Assembly (NCBI RefSeq): GCF_019972115.1
Contig: NZ_BPFJ01000002.1
Span: 310,001-374,000, forward strand
Origin: Sulfurovum sp. TSL6
Lineage (GTDB): Bacteria; Campylobacterota; Campylobacteria; Campylobacterales; Sulfurovaceae
Reading direction: 5' to 3'
DNA: 64,000 bases
The position numbers were made by a program, and so were the translations under genes. The stretch's first letter is position 1; every line of letters begins with the position of its first letter. Of the stretch, positions 20,823 through 28,977 are shown one piece after another. The notes under the pieces are model-generated. The model ran no database searches. It worked only from the letters and a program-made list of their open reading frames with translations, and was not told where the DNA came from.

Positions 20823-21476
20823 TTAGTCGAAGACATAACCTATAATGCCTTTCTCAGGTGGCGTAATATCAGTCATTTCAACCACAGAGCCTTTGTTTTT
20901 CTCTCTGTAGATCTTTGCTGCCTCTTCTTTGCCTGTACGGTCATACAATGCTGCGATATTTTCATTCAGCAAGTACTGGCTCATATGTAATCTTATCAGC
21001 ATAGTGTTGACAAGTGGTGCATAAGGAGAGCCCGGATAACGGTTAATGTATACTTTAGCCGTGGCGATACTGTCTATAATGAGTTTTTGGTCCTTGTAGA
21101 CATCTTTGATACCTAAAAACGATGCTTTGAGTTTCATAAAGTCTGTATATTCACGACTTTCATACTCACCAAAACGTTTGTTATACTCATCAAGGTAATA
21201 GTTCGCAAGCAGATACTCTTCAGCATTCATATGTGCATATGCAAGCATCATTAAAGAGGTCGGCATGAGCGGTGAACGCATATGTTCACTCTTAAGGGAA
21301 ATGTAGTACGCATCAGCTTTATCCAAATTTCCGCTCGTAATACTATTGGCTATTTGCTGATACCAATAGAGTGCAGGTTTATTAAACTCGGCCACTTCCT
21401 TTTCATCTCCGCATCCTACAAATAAAAATGATATTGCTAAAGCCATACCTACTAAAACACTTTTCTTCAAGTTCAT
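20823..21476 (-). CDS. bamD: Outer-membrane assembly lipoprotein BamD
   Basis: 217 aa with a lipoprotein signal ending in L-F-V-G-C, lipidated cysteine at residue 22. The body is helical TPR-like, with an LYWYQQIANSITSGNLDKADAYY pattern and later I-N-R-Y-P-G-S-P-Y, which fits BamD, the TPR lipoprotein that works with BamA to insert beta-barrel proteins. Campylobacterota BamD proteins have this length. The C-terminal segment (EKGIIGYVFD) is short. A 349-base untranslated stretch lies upstream, towards the divergent pilus operon. Confidence 0.85.
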   Translation of the reverse strand: MNLKKSVLVGMALAISFLFVGCGDEKEVAEFNKPALYWYQQIANSITSGNLDKADAYYISLKSEHMRSPLMPTSLMMLAYAHMNAEEYLLANYYLDEYNKRFGEYESREYTDFMKLKASFLGIKDVYKDQKLIIDSIATAKVYINRYPGSPYAPLVNTMLIRLHMSQYLLNENIAALYDRTGKEEAAKIYREKNKGSVVEMTDITPPEKGIIGYVFD

Positions 21477-21825
21477 ATCTTTCCCTAATTAAAATCTAAT
21501 AACATATATAATAGCTCAAAGTATGTAAAAAGCGTATTAGCAGTAACTCTATTTCACTAAATATCTTTTTAAAAGATACTTCTACACCAGTAAAATCAAA
21601 ATAATATTTCTTAAAAATGGTCATTATAAAGTAAATCTATGTTTTAAAATATACAAAAGTTACCAATTATAATATTAAATAATAAAAGAAGCTTTATTTT
21701 AAGATAACTTAAATGTTAAAAAACTTATACTTATGTACAATATGAATTAGGCTCTATTTAGGGATAGATGTCCTCTATAAACTGGAGAGTTTGATCTCTT
21801 TAGCTAAATTATAACAGGATATATG
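21477..21825. other. Long AT-rich intergenic region upstream of the pilus operon
   Basis: 349 bases between divergent bamD and the MshQ-like gene. It is very AT-rich and holds no plausible coding frame. A short hairpin AGAG-TTTGAT-CTCT is at 21786-21799, about 25 nt before the ribosome site AGGA (21816-21819), and a GGGATAGATGTCC segment lies just upstream of it. I see no known riboswitch motif here; the region probably holds both promoters. Confidence 0.5.
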
Positions 21826-24800
21826 ATGAAACTTTTAAATAAACTTTTTACTCTATTACTTTTTTCTTTCTTCTTAAGTACATATATACACGCTGTAACT
21901 TATGAAGATGCTGAACCCATTAATGATAGCTGCCCGGGTGAAGCTTTAAGCACAATTGTCAGTGGTACAACTACTTTTACTGGTACCATTGAAAGAGCAA
22001 ATAACGGGCTAGGGTTAACTGGTATTGATTATTCTCAAATGACTATTCCAAGTGATGGAAATATCACTATCACATGGCAAACTGACGACAATGGAAATCA
22101 AGCTTCTTTTTTAGTCGGTTCATCCTGTGATGATGATATCTATTACGATGGGTCAAGCCGTGAAAATACACATACGACAGATACATTTTCCGTGAATGCA
22201 AATGATGTTATTTACCTAAAAATATATGATGGTGAGGCTGAAGGCTATAGTATTACCATCACGTATAATCTTGCTACTCCTACTCCAGGTACTGACTTGC
22301 AAATTACAAAAGTGGACAGTGATGATCCTGTTGAAATTAATGAAGAGTTTTATTATATTATTGATGTTTCAAATGCAGGTGACAGTACATCATCGGGTAT
22401 AGTAGTACATGATATGTTGCCTATAGGTATGGATATGAATAAAACTAAAACCAATGAAGCTTCTGGGTTTTGGTCATGTGATCAACAGGCTGGTTCTCCT
22501 CATGTCTATTGTACTCATAACAGTGATATACCTTCAGGAGTGACCCATACTATCTATTTACATGTAACGGCACCTGATATAGCAGGCGTCATTACCAATA
22601 ACGTCGAGGTCAGTGACAATAACGGTTCTCATGATACTGCATTTGAAGAGACAACTATTACGGCAGAAATACAAAATGCAGATAATCTTTGTTACATAGA
22701 AAACACTGTTGCATATGGTGCCAATACCGATATCAATGCTTCATGTGAAAAAAGAGGTAACTTTTTTTATGGTAATATTGGCGGACAGGACGATTGTGTC
22801 GCACAAGTGATTATTCGAAAAGACCTAAATGTATCAATTGACCCTATAACCGGACTTGATGTCACTAAAATGTATGCTCCTGGTCTTAGTAGTGGTTCAG
22901 CTACTTCTTCAACAGGAAGTACAGTACTTAACGGTGGAGTAAAAACCACCTTAAACTTTGAAAGTTTTACTTCTTATCAGGAAGGCTATGTCGTACGGGT
23001 GAACGACGGCGTAATAGATGATAACAATTTAACTATTACTGATACAGGATCTGATTATACTCCAAATATGAATGGTATTGCGCTTTATGCGGATTATAAT
23101 ATATCTAATGAGCATCACTTTGGACGTATTTATGCCTGTAGTGGGGCCAGTGAAGGTGGTATAGAAATTAACTATTCTACTGATGTCATTGATACTCATA
23201 TCGGTGCTGATGCTGCTATAGCAAGCCAATATAATGCCAGTACAGATACTTCAGATACAGATAATAACATAAAATATATACGGACCATGGTTAGTGCATC
23301 TCCTACTAGGACGATTGAGGGTGTGCATCTTAATCTTGATGGAGCTGCTACAGTCTATACGCCAACCAATCCTGATTTTAACTTCATTATTTCACCCATC
23401 CTTGTTAATGATTCATGTGCTGGAGGAGTTGAGCCGCTCTATGAACCTGGTACGAATAATCCAGCTTTTATTATCGTACCCGATAATGCATATTCTGCTA
23501 CAGGGGCCATAGAAGTTCCTAGTACTGTAAGAAAAAGTGCCAGATTGCAACTTATAGCTATAGACCCTGACTCTTTAAGTGTAGAGGGACAGCAATGTAT
23601 TCTTAGTAGTAGTGCTGATGGAAACTTTGCAGGGGTACCATCCTGTGCCAACTCTGAAGTACAATATTCAGATTCATTTGGTCAAGATGCCTGGGATAGA
23701 TGTGGTATAGCTAGTGGAAGACCTTGTGACCCAAATAATCATGGTATTGCAAACACAAGTGATCCCTCTTATAATCCAGATACAGACAGTATTTATGTGA
23801 ATGATTACGGCTGTTATTTGTGTACCTTTAATGTTGCACCGGTCTGCTCAACAGATAACTTTGCCATCCGTCCTGAAAAGTTTGATATGGAGATGTCAGA
23901 CACCGATGCACCTAATCTTTTGCGTGCAGGAGAAGGTTATGGTGTTTCTCTGACCGCAAGAGATGCTCTAGGCAATATGCCAGTTGACTATACGGTGACT
24001 GATCACAATTTCAATAGCGATCTTGCTAGTAGGACAACGAAATATTTTAAAAACGGAATTGTAGATACGTCCGACCTACTTCACGGTACATCTGAATTAA
24101 ATAATACGGCTGTAGCATACATGGTTGAAGGTTTGTCAAGTTTAACCACTTCCAATCCAGGAAGTGCACAAGAAATTGTTGATGTAACCTATGATGATGT
24201 AGGTAAAATAAATTTAGAAATATATGATGAAGAGTGGGCTGCGATAGATAATGATGATACACCAATGGATTGTAATAGTTCTAAGCATACTTATATCTGT
24301 GGAGATTTAAATGTGACTTTCATTCCTCATCACTTCGGATTTGCAGAGCTTGCTATCTATAACCATGCAGGTCCAACTAGTGACTTTACCTATGTTGCAG
24401 ATAAAAGGGGTATGCCGTCTACAACTCCACCTACAAGAAGCCCAATGGCTGCCCGAGTAAAGACACGTATAGAAGCACTTAATAAACAAAATGGCATTAC
24501 ACAAAACTTTAAAAAGGACTTTGCTGGAAACCAATATTATGAAAATAATATTACAGTTATTCAAAAGGTTAAAATACCAACTGCTCGTACCCTTCCTAAT
24601 GAACCGCATGCTTATCTATTTGGATCTGATGCAAATGAATCTAAAATAGATAACAAGCTTATAGGATTTGGTCGGACTATTGGTACAGAAACAGATAGTC
24701 CAGGAACAAGAAATATCAAATGGGATGAAAGTACTTACCCACTCGATTTTAACTTCCAAAGAAAGATCAATGAAGAGGCAAACCCATTTGATGTTAATGG

Positions 24801-25560
24801 TACTTACTATTCCATTTCGGTCACCTCTGAGTATGTAGATATAGATACTGGAAACCTAGCAAAAATAGATGGAAGTCGCGTCGGTGATGATAATGCTTCA
24901 ACATCACCATGTATTGCACCACCGGCGGGAAGTTGTGTCAACTCTAATGCAGCATCAAAAGCAACTTTCTACTATGCAAGAACCCGACCATCTCAATATT
25001 TTTATGATGACATCACAGCTGCCAATGTCAATACGCCTATTGCGATCGATGTCTATTGTGATCTTCTATTTTCAGAATGCTATGAATATGGTATAGATAT
25101 ATACAATGCACAGATCAATGAAGCGGATTGGTGGTTATCATTAGATCATACTGAAAACAATACACGTCATGATGGGAATGTCACACTTCATGTAGGTGCT
25201 GTTACCCCTGCAGGCACCGCATCCGTTTCCTCTATAATATCTACAGACCCAGCCGAAGTGCAAATTACCTTGGGTGGTATAGATCCAACTGTTGGTGTAA
25301 CAGCCACTTCAGCAGATAGACCTATGACTGTTGATATAGAATTGGTACACAACATACTGCCATTCACATTGCCATACTATACCGCTTCAATACCATATAC
25401 TAACAGTTGGTTGATCTATAATGAGGACTCTTTAGACCTTCCAAGTCCTTTCTATAAAGTACGTTTTATCGGTATATCTGATTGGGCGGGGCATGGTGAT
25501 ACAGGACATGTTGTTGGTGGTAGTACCAGTACCAAGAAAAATAGACGACTAGGATGGTAA
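21826..25560 (+). CDS. MshQ-like (DUF6701) secreted surface protein of a type IV pilus locus
   Basis: 1244 aa. The Sec signal peptide is cleaved after ...YIHA near residue 25. Residues ~150-285 form a DUF11-type beta-sandwich repeat (DLQITKVDSDDPVEINE...TNNVEVSDNN). The C-terminal half has FAIRPEKFDME, later RAGEGYGVSLTARDALGN and FIPHHFGFAEL, matching the repeated 'RP-x-F ... AG ... F-x-P-x-H-F' layout of the DUF6701/MshQ family. MshQ sits in MSHA pilus clusters with minor pilins, as here. Cysteines are frequent, consistent with disulfides outside the cell. Start: ATG at 21826 is 6 nt from AGGA; the ATG at 21823 is only 3 nt away. It is probably an adhesive pilus tip or surface adhesin. Confidence 0.75.
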   Translation: MKLLNKLFTLLLFSFFLSTYIHAVTYEDAEPINDSCPGEALSTIVSGTTTFTGTIERANNGLGLTGIDYSQMTIPSDGNITITWQTDDNGNQASFLVGSSCDDDIYYDGSSRENTHTTDTFSVNANDVIYLKIYDGEAEGYSITITYNLATPTPGTDLQITKVDSDDPVEINEEFYYIIDVSNAGDSTSSGIVVHDMLPIGMDMNKTKTNEASGFWSCDQQAGSPHVYCTHNSDIPSGVTHTIYLHVTAPDIAGVITNNVEVSDNNGSHDTAFEETTITAEIQNADNLCYIENTVAYGANTDINASCEKRGNFFYGNIGGQDDCVAQVIIRKDLNVSIDPITGLDVTKMYAPGLSSGSATSSTGSTVLNGGVKTTLNFESFTSYQEGYVVRVNDGVIDDNNLTITDTGSDYTPNMNGIALYADYNISNEHHFGRIYACSGASEGGIEINYSTDVIDTHIGADAAIASQYNASTDTSDTDNNIKYIRTMVSASPTRTIEGVHLNLDGAATVYTPTNPDFNFIISPILVNDSCAGGVEPLYEPGTNNPAFIIVPDNAYSATGAIEVPSTVRKSARLQLIAIDPDSLSVEGQQCILSSSADGNFAGVPSCANSEVQYSDSFGQDAWDRCGIASGRPCDPNNHGIANTSDPSYNPDTDSIYVNDYGCYLCTFNVAPVCSTDNFAIRPEKFDMEMSDTDAPNLLRAGEGYGVSLTARDALGNMPVDYTVTDHNFNSDLASRTTKYFKNGIVDTSDLLHGTSELNNTAVAYMVEGLSSLTTSNPGSAQEIVDVTYDDVGKINLEIYDEEWAAIDNDDTPMDCNSSKHTYICGDLNVTFIPHHFGFAELAIYNHAGPTSDFTYVADKRGMPSTTPPTRSPMAARVKTRIEALNKQNGITQNFKKDFAGNQYYENNITVIQKVKIPTARTLPNEPHAYLFGSDANESKIDNKLIGFGRTIGTETDSPGTRNIKWDESTYPLDFNFQRKINEEANPFDVNGTYYSISVTSEYVDIDTGNLAKIDGSRVGDDNASTSPCIAPPAGSCVNSNAASKATFYYARTRPSQYFYDDITAANVNTPIAIDVYCDLLFSECYEYGIDIYNAQINEADWWLSLDHTENNTRHDGNVTLHVGAVTPAGTASVSSIISTDPAEVQITLGGIDPTVGVTATSADRPMTVDIELVHNILPFTLPYYTASIPYTNSWLIYNEDSLDLPSPFYKVRFIGISDWAGHGDTGHVVGGSTSTKKNRRLGW

Positions 25561-26289
25561 ATGATTCTCAAAACTAAAATAATGCGTCCGGCAATTGCCA
25601 TGATAGAATTGATCTTTGCCATTGTGGTCATGGGCATCATACTGATGTCTGCGCCTCAACTCATCAGTACAGCAACCAAAAGTGGTTATGTTGCGATCCA
25701 ACAGGAAGCTATCAATGAGGCTGCATCCAGAATTAACATGATCATGGGTTACCATTGGGATGAAAACAGTGCAGATGAAACTGTGCTCGATCCTATTTTA
25801 CAAACTGCAAGTCCAGTAGCCGACCTTGCGGAATCTACATATACAGACGGAAATGGGACAGGACGAAGAGTTGGTACTCCATTGGAGAGCTACAGAAGTT
25901 TTGTGAGACCGGATGGTTCCAGACTTACAGCTACAGCAGCAGGTGGACTGGGAAATGATGGTCTAGAAAATGACATAGACGATTTTATAGGTATTATCGG
26001 ATTGAATCTTGCAGGAACGGGAACAGGGACAAATTACATTGAAAAGAATGTAACTATTGCCACTGCAGTATTCTATATATCCGATAATACAAATTACAAT
26101 CCTGCTGGCAATACCATCAATTTTAATGCAGACTTTACCCAGCAATCAGCAACTACCACTAACATAAAACGTATCAGCACTACACTTACCAGTGATGCTG
26201 CGAGTCCGGACGAACTTGACAAAACTATTATACTGCATGCATTTTCTTGCAATATAGGTGGATACAAACTTGAAGAGAGGGATTTCTAA
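25561..26289 (+). CDS. Prepilin-like minor pilin (MSHA/type II secretion type)
   Basis: 242 aa. A short leader ends in P-A, then IAMIELIFAIVVMGIILMSA, a type IV prepilin N-terminus: cleavage after alanine, glutamate at +5, and a hydrophobic helix. The rest is a polar globular domain with no clear family. It starts one codon after the MshQ-like gene stops, with AGGA 7 nt upstream, so the genes are one operon. Size and position suggest a minor pilin (MshD or PilV-like). The missing methylatable phenylalanine at +1 (isoleucine here) is uncommon. Confidence 0.7.
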   Translation: MILKTKIMRPAIAMIELIFAIVVMGIILMSAPQLISTATKSGYVAIQQEAINEAASRINMIMGYHWDENSADETVLDPILQTASPVADLAESTYTDGNGTGRRVGTPLESYRSFVRPDGSRLTATAAGGLGNDGLENDIDDFIGIIGLNLAGTGTGTNYIEKNVTIATAVFYISDNTNYNPAGNTINFNADFTQQSATTTNIKRISTTLTSDAASPDELDKTIILHAFSCNIGGYKLEERDF

Positions 26290-26290
26290 T

Positions 26291-27100
26291 ATGAATCACA
26301 AGAGACTCACCCCGGCCTTTAGTATGCTCGAACTTGTTTTTGTTATCACCATACTTGGTATTGTTTCATCCATTGGTGCTGAATTGATCGCCAAAGTCTA
26401 TGAAGGCTATATTGTTCAAAGAGCAGAGCATCGAGCTACAATTAAAACAGAGTTAGCAGCAACACAGATAGCAAATAGACTTACTTCTGCAATTCCGGGT
26501 ACTGTTTATCGAAAAAATAGTGGCGCAACTGTTATTGAAGAGATAACTGATGATATGAGTTTACCTGGAAATGCATATACTGTGCTTCAATGGGTTGCTA
26601 GTGACATGGACAGTTACAATGCAGCAGCTACACCTGGATGGAGTGGATTTTGTGATATTGATGATCCTGCCAATACAGCAAATTCACTTTCAACTCCAGG
26701 ATCTGCATTGGGTACTACCACTGCTGTTATAAATAACCTCTCATCATCTGCACCTGCGCCTAAAATATATTTTCCTTATGACTCTAATGAATATAATGCC
26801 ACAATTGCCGGTACAACCATTACACTCTCAGGAGCGGGAGCACCACATATCGTAGAGCACTACAAACTGGCTTGGTCTTCTTATGCTTTAGCAGTAGAGA
26901 ATGGAGACCTCTATCTTTATTATGATTTTCCTGCCATACCGGCAGTAGGAGTCGGTACTAAAAAATCACTATTGTTATCAAATGTTAGTACATTCAAATT
27001 TAAAGGTGATGGACAAACCATCCGATTTAAGATTTGCAAAGAAGAACGAATAAGCGAGGATATAAATATCACAGCATGTAAAGAAAAGGCGGTATTCTAA
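26291..27100 (+). CDS. Prepilin-like minor pilin (PilW/MshO-like size)
   Basis: 269 aa. Leader ends in T-P-A, then FSMLELVFVITILGIVSSIG with F at +1 and E at +5: a canonical prepilin site with alanine at -1. The hydrophobic helix is followed by a globular domain of about 230 residues, a length seen in the larger minor pilins (MshO, PilW, GspJ). GAGAGGG lies about 10 nt before the ATG at 26291; an earlier in-frame start at 26258 would overlap the previous gene and is not supported. Transcribed with its neighbours. Confidence 0.7.
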   Translation: MNHKRLTPAFSMLELVFVITILGIVSSIGAELIAKVYEGYIVQRAEHRATIKTELAATQIANRLTSAIPGTVYRKNSGATVIEEITDDMSLPGNAYTVLQWVASDMDSYNAAATPGWSGFCDIDDPANTANSLSTPGSALGTTTAVINNLSSSAPAPKIYFPYDSNEYNATIAGTTITLSGAGAPHIVEHYKLAWSSYALAVENGDLYLYYDFPAIPAVGVGTKKSLLLSNVSTFKFKGDGQTIRFKICKEERISEDINITACKEKAVF

Positions 27101-27561
27101 TGAGAAAAGCATTTTCAATGTTAACAGCGATTTTTATTATCGTTTTGATGGCAACAGTAGCAGCATTTATAATGAATCTTTCAGGGAAAATGGTTAAAGG
27201 AACTACTGCACAGTTCCAACATGAACAGTCTGTTCTTTTGGCAAAAAGCTATACTGAATATGCCATTATGGCGGTCACTGCAAATGAGCATAATACCTCT
27301 ACCTGCCTGAATAATATTAGTGGTGGTTATGGAGATATTGGGGGTGGTAATTATCTCTATAATATTGATGTCAATATCTCTTATATCGGAGATACGAACT
27401 TACATGCGAATTGTAGAACACTAAGTAATAGTGTCGTCGCTACAAAATCTCCACTCAACATTATTGTTGATGTCTTTGTCAAATATAAAGATTTAGATCA
27501 TCCAGCAGGTGCAAATACACCTGATACCACTTATCATAGAAGGAGCTTACAAAAAATATGA
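27100..27561 (+). CDS. Prepilin-like protein lacking the +5 glutamate (PilX/GspK-like)
   Basis: 153 aa. N-terminus RKAFSMLTAIFIIVLMATVAAF: cleavage expected after alanine, F at +1, but threonine instead of glutamate at +5. In type II secretion and type IV pilus systems the tip-capping minor pilins GspK (and PilX relatives) lack this glutamate. The rest is small and polar with two cysteines (near 68 and 108) that could form a disulfide. It starts inside the stop of the previous gene (TAATG) and overlaps the next gene by ATGA, so translation is coupled. Confidence 0.65.
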   Translation: MRKAFSMLTAIFIIVLMATVAAFIMNLSGKMVKGTTAQFQHEQSVLLAKSYTEYAIMAVTANEHNTSTCLNNISGGYGDIGGGNYLYNIDVNISYIGDTNLHANCRTLSNSVVATKSPLNIIVDVFVKYKDLDHPAGANTPDTTYHRRSLQKI

Positions 27562-28220
27562 GAACTATAACTAAACAAACAAAAGCCTTTACTATGATTG
27601 AATTAGTATTCGTCATTGTCGTTCTGGGTATACTTGCTGCACTTGCTCTCCCTAGAATGGATCGTGATTTAAGGCAGGAAGCAGCAGATAACATTCTCTC
27701 TGCAATACGATATACACAACATTTGGCACTTAATGATGATAAGACAGATCCATTTGATCCGAACTGGCAAAATGAATTATGGCAAATTCAATTTAGTACA
27801 ACAGCATCTACAGGCTATCTGTTTTATGTTATTGGGTCAGATACAGATCATACTGGAGGAACTACAGCTTACCCTGCAAAAGAGGAAACAGCCATTGATC
27901 CCGTAAATGGTAAATATATATTCCATATAAGTGCAAACTCTGAACTTCAAGATGAAGAGAGCCCAAATATACTTTTAGGGAAAAAATATGGTGTATCTGG
28001 AGTAAATCCAACTGGAGGATGTACCACTCAACAACTTGCTTTCGATCAACTTGGAAGACCGCATACAAATGTAGGTGGTGCAGGAAATACTTATAATACA
28101 TATATGAGTGCTGACTGTAATTTGACATTCAGTTTTACAAATAATGCAGCTTTACCTTTTTCTATCATTATCACAAAAGAAACTGGATATGCCTATATTG
28201 ATGGTCAAGAGGATTCTTAA
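27558..28220 (+). CDS. Prepilin-like protein with GspH/FimT-like layout
   Basis: 220 aa. Leader ends KA, then FTMIELVFVIVVLGILAALALP, a textbook prepilin site with glutamate at +5. It is followed by R-Q-E-A-A-D-N-I-L-S-A-I-R-Y-T-Q-H-L-A, the helix seen in GspH/FimT-type pseudopilins. The downstream region is polar, with two cysteines (GCTTQQLAF and a later C). It overlaps the previous gene by 4 nt and is last in the operon. No ATPase, platform protein or secretin gene is nearby, so assembly machinery must be encoded elsewhere. Confidence 0.75.
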   Translation: MRTITKQTKAFTMIELVFVIVVLGILAALALPRMDRDLRQEAADNILSAIRYTQHLALNDDKTDPFDPNWQNELWQIQFSTTASTGYLFYVIGSDTDHTGGTTAYPAKEETAIDPVNGKYIFHISANSELQDEESPNILLGKKYGVSGVNPTGGCTTQQLAFDQLGRPHTNVGGAGNTYNTYMSADCNLTFSFTNNAALPFSIIITKETGYAYIDGQEDS

Positions 28221-28266
28221 TCTCTTCTCTATTTACCTTTCATTAAGTATCTTAAGTTAAAATTAA

Positions 28267-28292
28267 GTATGGATATAGCGATATATCTATAC
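28267..28292 (+). promoter_or_regulatory. 11-bp inverted repeat with GCGA loop upstream of hpf
   Basis: The stretch GTATGGATATA-GCGA-TATATCTATAC can pair over 11 bp with one G-U. It ends 9 nt before the ribosome site AAGGA (28302-28306) of hpf. It may be an operator, or an RNA hairpin controlling hpf translation or ending the pilus transcript. Confidence 0.45.
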
Positions 28293-28312
28293 TTTAATAT
28301 TAAGGATATATT

Positions 28313-28846
28313 ATGAACAAAAGTATAACGGGAAGACATTTCGAACTGACTGAGCCTATAAAGGCATATGCTGAAGCAGCCATAGATAGTTTAGAGAAAT
28401 ATCATTTAGACATTATATCTGCCAGTACAGTTATCTCTGCAAGTGAGAAGAATGGGAAAAAAGGCTTTGTCACAGAGTTCATTATTAACCTTAAAGATAA
28501 AAACACGATCGTTATCACCCAAGTGGATAAAGATGTGTATGCTGCCATGGACCTTGCTATAGAAAGAGTGAAAAAATCACTTAGAAGACATGCCGATAAA
28601 ATAAAAGATCATAAAGTTATGAGTTTTAGGGATTTGGGAGAAGAAGCTGAAGCTGTCAGTGAATTAACCACAGAGGAAGTAGAGATTGTCCCAATGGACT
28701 TAGAGCTTCACAAGCCAATTGATTTTGATGAAGCGATAGAAGCACTTCAAGCTGAGAAAAAAAGACAATTTATTGTATTTAATGACAATGAGGGGTTGAT
28801 GAGAGTCATGTATAAAAGAGCGGATGGGAGATTCGGACTCTATTAA
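28313..28846 (+). CDS. hpf: Ribosome hibernation promoting factor, long form
   Basis: 177 aa. N-terminal domain (residues 1-~105) starts MNKSITGRHFELTEPIKAYAE and has the beta-alpha-beta-beta-beta-alpha layout that binds the decoding site of 30S. A linker of about 25 acidic residues follows, then a C-terminal ~55-residue domain (KPIDFDEAIEALQAE...FIVFNDNEGLMRVMYKRADGRFGLY), the dimerisation domain of long HPF. Long HPF pairs two 70S ribosomes into 100S dimers under stress and in stationary phase. AAGGA is 6 nt before the ATG. It is transcribed alone and is followed by a convergent recG with a strong hairpin between. Confidence 0.93.
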   Translation: MNKSITGRHFELTEPIKAYAEAAIDSLEKYHLDIISASTVISASEKNGKKGFVTEFIINLKDKNTIVITQVDKDVYAAMDLAIERVKKSLRRHADKIKDHKVMSFRDLGEEAEAVSELTTEEVEIVPMDLELHKPIDFDEAIEALQAEKKRQFIVFNDNEGLMRVMYKRADGRFGLY

Positions 28847-28851
28847 TAGAA

Positions 28852-28879
28852 AGGCAAATGGGCAAAGCCCATCTTGCCT
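28852..28879. terminator. Bidirectional terminator between hpf and recG
   Basis: An interrupted stem AGGCAA-a-TGGGC / GCCCA-tc-TTGCCT around AAA (28852-28879) starts 6 nt after the hpf stop. Eleven pairs with a one-sided bulge. It lies between convergent genes. Its core GGCAAAGCC also occurs in a hairpin at 42191. Confidence 0.65.
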
Positions 28880-28898
28880 ACGCTAACGCTTACTTGGC

Positions 28899-28977
28899 TT
28901 ACGACTCGCATTTAATGCCTCGCATGCACTGTAATTTAGTTACTTGTCAGCAACCGGATCATGACACTGGTGTCACT
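28899..28977 (+). repeat. Intergenic repeat copy 1
   Basis: Starts TTACGACTCG, continues as AT-rich sequence with ACTTGTCAGC, and ends in the palindrome TGACAC-TG-GTGTCA (28962-28975). It is highly similar over about 75 nt to the segment at 43765-43841. It lies 8 nt downstream of the recG stop on the minus strand. Confidence 0.65.

Follow-up and report, generated by a model that had tools for sequence, protein, structure and literature searches.

The 64,000-nucleotide window analyzed here (C2:310001-374000 of the Sulfurovum sp. TSL6 genome, which comprises 2.25 Mb in 7 contigs) contains five plus-strand genes, head to tail, that encode a large MshQ-like protein and four minor pilins. Together they very probably form a cassette for the tip and the initiation of a type IV pilus of the mannose-sensitive hemagglutinin (MSHA) type, whose machine is encoded elsewhere in the genome. 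The first gene (21823..25560) encodes the MshQ-like putative tip protein of 1245 amino acids (1244 from the second ATG, at 21826), with a Sec-type signal peptide read by eye. It is followed by an I-like minor pilin of 242 amino acids (25561..26289; leader A/IAMIE, the slash standing between positions -1 and +1) and a J-like pilin of 269 amino acids when counted from the inner ATG at 26291 (26291..27100; leader A/FSMLE), whose reading frame is open from a GTG at 26258. The K-like pilin of 153 amino acids (27100..27561; leader A/FSMLT) lacks Glu5, and the last gene (27558..28220) encodes an H-like pilin of 220 amino acids (leader A/FTMIE), which was undetected in the cassettes of many relatives.

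With the J start placed at 26291, gaps of 0 and 1 base and overlaps of 1 and 4 bases separate the five genes, and all five frames are open. The first-pass annotation had described a 1244-amino-acid DUF6701/MshQ-like protein with four prepilins in co-transcribed frames. The open reading frames at 21823-28220 agree with this description, and the Pfam DUF6701 family (PF20419) was matched above its cut-off. The overlaps, together with the lack of plus-strand terminator-like sites in 21400-28900, suggest that the genes are co-transcribed; promoter-like matches were at chance level (32 found versus 31.7 expected). The cassette is beyond chance, since many genomes share this gene order. As had also been noted, no assembly gene is adjacent. 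The flanks consist of a bamD-like (YfiO) gene (20823..21476, minus strand) and lon (minus strand) on one side, and of the gene for the hpf/S30EA ribosome hibernation factor (28313..28846, plus strand) and recG (minus strand) on the other, with lon and recG named by eye. The bamD-like gene is a frequent neighbor of the cassette and hpf a conserved one; both lie outside the device.

All four cassette pilins have leaders of the prepilin type. H passes the Pfam N_methyl model and both J and H pass NCBIfam TIGR02532; I and K were assigned from leader motif, gene order and homologues, and K also from its predicted fold. The set has the makeup of an H-I-J-K group, that is, four prepilins of which K is without Glu5. 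The residue at +5 of K is Thr, in agreement with the earlier observation that one pilin lacks the +5 glutamate, and Glu5 was found in 0 of 20 K homologues when read from the alignment. The further likening of K to GspK-type pilins holds for the missing Glu5 but not for a full GspK, because the protein has 153 amino acids, is predicted to form one small pilin domain and scored 16.9 bits against the GspK model NF037980 (cut-off, 130 bits; profile length, 307). It is therefore K by position and by the missing Glu5, and PilX-like. The predicted K model (pLDDT 81.9) consists of one long helix and a small sheet, indicating a single small pilin domain. Its best structural matches were minor pseudopilins and minor pilins (2ret_C; Z 7.5, root-mean-square deviation [rmsd] 3.3, 78 aligned residues), with Z values, up to 7.5, that count as common by the standards of the search tool; Foldseek gave no match for K with E < 0.2.

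The leaders of all four pilins end in Ala at position -1, as the first-pass annotation had stated, but this residue is nothing special. Among 13 prepilins read in the same genome, Ala precedes the cleavage site in 8 and Gly in 5, and 20 K pilins of relatives have Ala (9), Gly (10) or Ser (1). Ala at -1 was therefore rejected as a special signal. The K counts were taken from the alignment; automated cleavage calls placed the cut wrongly in several K pilins, giving Ser instead of the Ala or Gly that precedes the site, and left out 12 of 24 J, 2 of 24 I and 1 of 22 K rows.

The MshQ-like protein has a variable N-terminal part and a better conserved, mostly beta C-terminal half. Mean identity to it per 50 residues was 0.08 to 0.20 over residues 1 to 600 and 0.16 to 0.37 thereafter. 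A DUF11 module at residues 158-271 (22294..22635, plus strand) is the only one in the N-terminal part of this copy that could be named. In nine orthologues, this part varied in length and contained CUB, Big_9, cadherin-like, Calx-beta or DUF11 modules; four of the nine had no named module there. The DUF6701 match covers residues 675-905 (23845..24537, plus strand) and profile positions 139-338 of 577; it scored 40.7 bits on a 500-amino-acid piece (cut-off, 27) and 40.2 bits in the genome search. DUF6701 was missed in hmmscan runs of the full 1245-amino-acid protein and of a 745-amino-acid piece, so default annotation may overlook such proteins. A Pfam DUF6701 survey of the 298 genomes described below recovered 18, an undercount next to the 119 given by the alignment-based search. 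The nearest named relative among the fetched loci was a Sulfurovum metagenome-assembled genome (57% identity in the best segment), and plasmid searches for MshQ relatives found nothing.

A predicted model of residues 501-1245 (24 sequences; mean pLDDT 75.6, pTM 0.69) is mostly beta and appears as Ig-like modules, with no barrel recognized. Foldseek placed complement C5 and C3 first and the adhesin FdeC sixth (E 3.6e-4); with the structure-search tool VIA, one glycoside hydrolase domain came first and FdeC second (Z 8.3, 281 aligned, rmsd 6.1). PilY1 was absent among the Foldseek and VIA matches listed for this Ig-like model, an absence that excludes nothing, and Pfam scans of MshQ gave no match to the PilY1 family. 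The last 23 residues have pLDDT values below 50, and this low-confidence end carries the class-specific C-terminal motif R-L-G-W (25546..25557, plus strand). Passages of PMC9815625 count MshQ among the MSHA components without a known function. Parts of PMC7096442 describe V. cholerae MshQ as a putative adhesin that is not needed for retraction but without which surface MSHA is lowered, and an excerpt of PMC4094467 reports that the exchange of mshQ between V. fischeri strains changed squid colonization.

The first-pass annotation had proposed a genome search for PilB/PilC/PilQ/PilD-like genes and their pilins, and had made the pilus assignment depend on type IV pilus or type II secretion system (T2SS) machinery being present. 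An MSHA-type machine and a T2SS were both found, along with a peptidase and further pilins. The MSHA-type operon occupies C2:120.1-128.8 kb, at a distance of approximately 203 kb from the cassette, and its genes run MshI, J, K, L, M, N, E, G, where the letters of MshI, J, K and N were assigned by position and size. The MshL secretin passed TIGR02519 (254.4 bits; cut-off, 250.2). Beside it in the operon are MshE (PilB/GspE-type) and MshG (PilC/GspF-type), which do not reach the GspE, PilB and GspF model cut-offs and were identified from family and position. The MshM-like protein, of 270 amino acids and encoded between MshL and the MshN-like gene, had its best match to TIGR03015 (E 6e-8; 32.4 bits versus a cut-off of 324.5). 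Four further pilins at C2:507.8-510 kb are candidates for the MshA major pilin, and the MSH model allows mshA away from the locus. The single match to an A24 prepilin peptidase (E<=0.001) is at C2:258.8 kb, so that no peptidase lies in the MSHA locus. One PilT-family ATPase scored 434.1 bits (cut-off, 319.1), and two more T2SSE-family matches are of PilT size. The T2SS, at C2:746-756 kb, has five pilins of its own; its GspD and GspG pass their cut-offs, and no NCBIfam model matched its K-like pilin.

The distribution of these genes was surveyed in a single sample comprising 298 genomes of the class (genomes and loci are denoted below by G and L numbers). MshQ was counted by alignment of its C-terminal half (E<=1e-5), J by alignment (E<=1e-8) and MshL at E<=1e-40. 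MshQ was found in 119 genomes, the J pilin in 158, MshL in 251 and GspG of the T2SS in 57. Within the 119 MshQ genomes, J was present in 118, MshL in 116 and GspG in 48; MshL was found in 70 of the 71 MshQ genomes without GspG. Among the matches listed, J followed MshQ on the same strand, no more than 4 kb downstream, in 104 of the 108 genomes with both (median gap, 691 bases), and was within 4 kb of hpf, the site occupied in our window, in 108 of the 113 genomes with both. In four relatives (L052, L059, L096 and L097), MshQ-I-J-K-H is directly upstream of MshI and the genes onward to MshE. The pilins of L056 and L063 border the machine genes, with MshQ some 1.9 kb upstream of these pilins. 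MshQ is thus linked both to the minor pilins, which are adjacent here, and to the MSHA machine, which is in line in the four relatives. A separate arrangement was seen in L185 (1-5461) of G007, a genome outside the 119, where lon and bamD precede pilins I, J, K and H without an intervening MshQ match.

The C-terminal ends of MshQ fall into classes that follow the type of the accompanying J pilin. Class-specific ends were first seen in 42 C-termini, and 40 further loci were used as a held-out test, in which J type was taken as the higher score on an hpf-site or a single-operon J profile. The test gave a W end in all 29 cases with a neighboring J of the hpf profile and an [FLY]R end in all 12 with one of the single-operon profile; the J of 4 of the 40 loci had gone into the profiles, with their tails unseen beforehand. 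When the data were pooled, 58 of 60 MshQ proteins with an hpf-site-type J in the locus ended in W and 20 of 20 with a single-operon J ended in [FLY]R. The exceptions to the W end were L083 and L192, both with low J scores. A longer tail list (63 + 21) includes L187, L188 and L193, all ending in W, and L095, which are without a scorable J in the locus. The MshQ proteins of L083 (7820-11647) and L192 (1637-5500) end in DY(A/T)PA(V/T)R, a third tail type outside the two main classes.

Tail class also matched where MshQ and pilins were unlinked. Six genomes (G004, G040, G006, G028, G039 and G086) have an I-J-K trio without an adjacent MshQ, and the J of these trios scores as the hpf-site type. The trio adjoins hpf in the first five, and no hpf was found in the 8 kb covered for G086. 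All eight MshQ genes elsewhere in these six genomes (L050, three in L051, L055, L062, L186 and L190) end in W. Of the solo MshQ proteins tallied, 9 of 10 end in W, the other being that of L053. In five loci (L051, L091, L154, L195 and L064), two or three MshQ paralogues occur in tandem or close together, by one pilin trio or, in L051, apart, and they look as if tip proteins were exchangeable. The last 8 residues of K also differ, as most hpf-site copies end in RR(S/T)(L/I)QK(I/L) and the single-operon copies of L094, L096 and L097 in RR(T/S)(M/L)QRP, with L083, L086 and L092 as exceptions; judged from the alignments, these ends are a possible counterpart to the MshQ tail.

It is quite possible, and put forward here tentatively, that the MshQ tail acts as an address tag. 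A W end (as a rule [RK]-x-x-W-COOH) would direct MshQ into the hpf-site I-J-K set and a G-[VI]-[KR]-x-[FLY]-R-COOH end (as a rule) into its single-operon counterpart. In this way several MshQ variants, whether unlinked or in tandem, could be swapped on one tip, and two pilus systems sharing a cell could be kept apart. Because shared descent could explain the match between tail and J without contact, docking is something that we infer from this match. Alternatively, though this appears somewhat less likely, the tail may be a secretion, folding or outer-membrane targeting signal read by other machinery. Outer-membrane export signals, too, typically have an aromatic residue at the C terminus, the tail lies in a low-confidence stretch of the model, and descent alone could account for a tail class that tracks the neighboring J type. 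However, seven genomes among the 40 test loci hold both tail types, each beside its matching J, although a general export machinery would presumably be shared, and the model ahead of the tail consists of putative Ig-like beta modules with no recognizable barrel. The class-specific tail is new here. A literature search limited to open-licence papers found none on the tail classes, on a tip adhesin with minor pilins and a C-terminal tail, on DUF6701, or on an MSHA type IV pilus in Sulfurimonas.

The J tree (36 rows) united the 23 hpf-site-type rows in a single clade (100/100) that excludes the single-operon J. As the tree separates these rows, the hpf-site and single-operon sets look like two paralogous pilus types. 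The MshL tree was built from 27 rows, leaving out four noQ-locus rows and GspD, which forms a long branch. Five of its seven single-operon rows grouped in a clade (100/99) and G006 and G224 fell elsewhere, and a single clade of all seven was not rejected (p-AU 0.093). The MshL of TSL6 belongs to a group of 13 (100/99), mostly MshL of hpf-site genomes; G195, G165, G061, G240, G272, G182 and G053 fall outside this group. Neither the single-operon rows nor the remaining MshL rows form one clean clade.

The evidence for a tip and initiation cassette of a distant MSHA-type pilus consists of the gene content, the conserved order, the co-occurrence with MshL, the linkage to the machine in relatives, the varied N-terminal modules and the class-specific tail. 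Processing of the four minor pilins would fall to the one prepilin peptidase of the genome. An H-I-J-K-like complex may then gather in the inner membrane and prime the distant MSHA machine (MshE ATPase, MshG platform and MshL secretin), after which major pilins would be added below the minor-pilin complex. MshQ would cap this complex at the tip. Its conserved Ig-like C-terminal half and short tail would be oriented toward the pilins, and the outward-facing, variable N-terminal modules would form the adhesive part. This agrees with one suggestion of the first-pass annotation, namely a tip complex serving a pilus with its machine encoded elsewhere, in that an MSHA-type operon is present approximately 203 kb away, the two are linked in relatives and MshQ co-occurs with MshL.

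Several points weigh against this assignment. Three MshQ genomes (G144, G174 and G295) are below the MshL threshold; G174 and G295 are in about 110 contigs each, and G144 is in one contig and has J in two frames. Co-occurrence is confounded by kinship, and Fisher values, which ignore kinship, were not taken as probabilities. The H, I, J and K letters are weak, that of K having just a GspK-model hint behind it (E 0.0035). The structure matches of the predicted MshQ model are generic similarity, and no solved structure matching MshQ by sequence was found. Finally, in G234 (L065, 8415-19878), GspD, GspE, a pilin, a HerA-like gene and MshQ-I-J-K-H are consecutive on one strand. At the G144 locus itself (L194, 2888-3930), MshQ is accompanied by a J split in two frames, with no MshL in the genome at E<=1e-40, and this pilus is perhaps decaying.

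The arrangement in G234, which mixes T2SS and MSHA-type genes, was the one seen that points to the T2SS, and it slightly raised the standing of the explanation that the minor pilins cap a T2SS pseudopilus and that MshQ is a substrate or the tip of this system. A T2SS is present in the TSL6 genome, and one peptidase would serve both systems. Nevertheless, this explanation is very unlikely. The T2SS locus carries five pilins of its own, the cassette is in line with the MSHA machine in four relatives, and GspG is missing from 71 of the 119 MshQ genomes, so that many complete genomes combine MshQ and J with no GspG, contrary to a role in the T2SS. The T2SS was thus set aside as the machine on gene content and the GspG survey, with the gene order of G234 pointing the other way. 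A stand-alone surface device, which the first-pass annotation had offered as its other suggestion, or a decaying orphan operon is hardly credible, since the five frames are open here, the arrangement recurs in many genomes and a machine is present, even though no machine gene adjoins the cassette and some relatives look decayed (J in two frames in G144, I in two frames in G224).

For the MSHA-type tip cassette, the survey shows that MshQ has conserved partners, varies in its modular N-terminal part and carries a short, conserved tail whose class tracks the type of minor pilins. The question of what holds the tip protein on an MSHA pilus thereby becomes testable by deletion of a few residues. 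In many genomes the tip cassette occupies one chromosomal site, which shows that it can be inherited independently of the machine; annotation based on a single locus would therefore miss or misread it.

The cassette resembles the GspH-I-J-K tip of the T2SS in having four minor pilins with a K that lacks Glu5, a lack noted for GspK in a passage of PMC7541494, and in that the best matches of the predicted K model are minor pseudopilins and pilins. It differs from that tip in the size of K (153 amino acids versus the 307 positions of the GspK model), in the large non-pilin protein and in the absence of GspG from 71 of the 119 cassette genomes. A similar likeness exists to PilY1 with FimU, PilV, PilW and PilX, where, according to parts of PMC7541494, a large non-pilin protein with a variable N terminus is clustered with four minor pilins, PilX being without Glu5. 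Unlike PilY1, MshQ here has DUF6701 and a predicted model of Ig-like beta modules.

The MSHA of Vibrio cholerae, with the minor pilins MshC, MshD, MshO and MshP and with MshQ, is alike in combining an MshQ-like DUF6701 protein with minor pilins and in the order of the machine genes, which in Vibrio is also MshI-J-K-L-M-N-E-G. MSH in Epsilon-proteobacteria is already known; in the relevant passages of PMC6668835, MSH is reported in this group and described as almost exclusively encoded in a single locus, with mshA as a loner. The Vibrio operon runs from mshB to mshQ in the portion of PMC4624765 that describes it, whereas MshQ is first in the cassette here. Unlike in Vibrio, the tip cassette of TSL6 is located away from both the machine genes and the other pilins.

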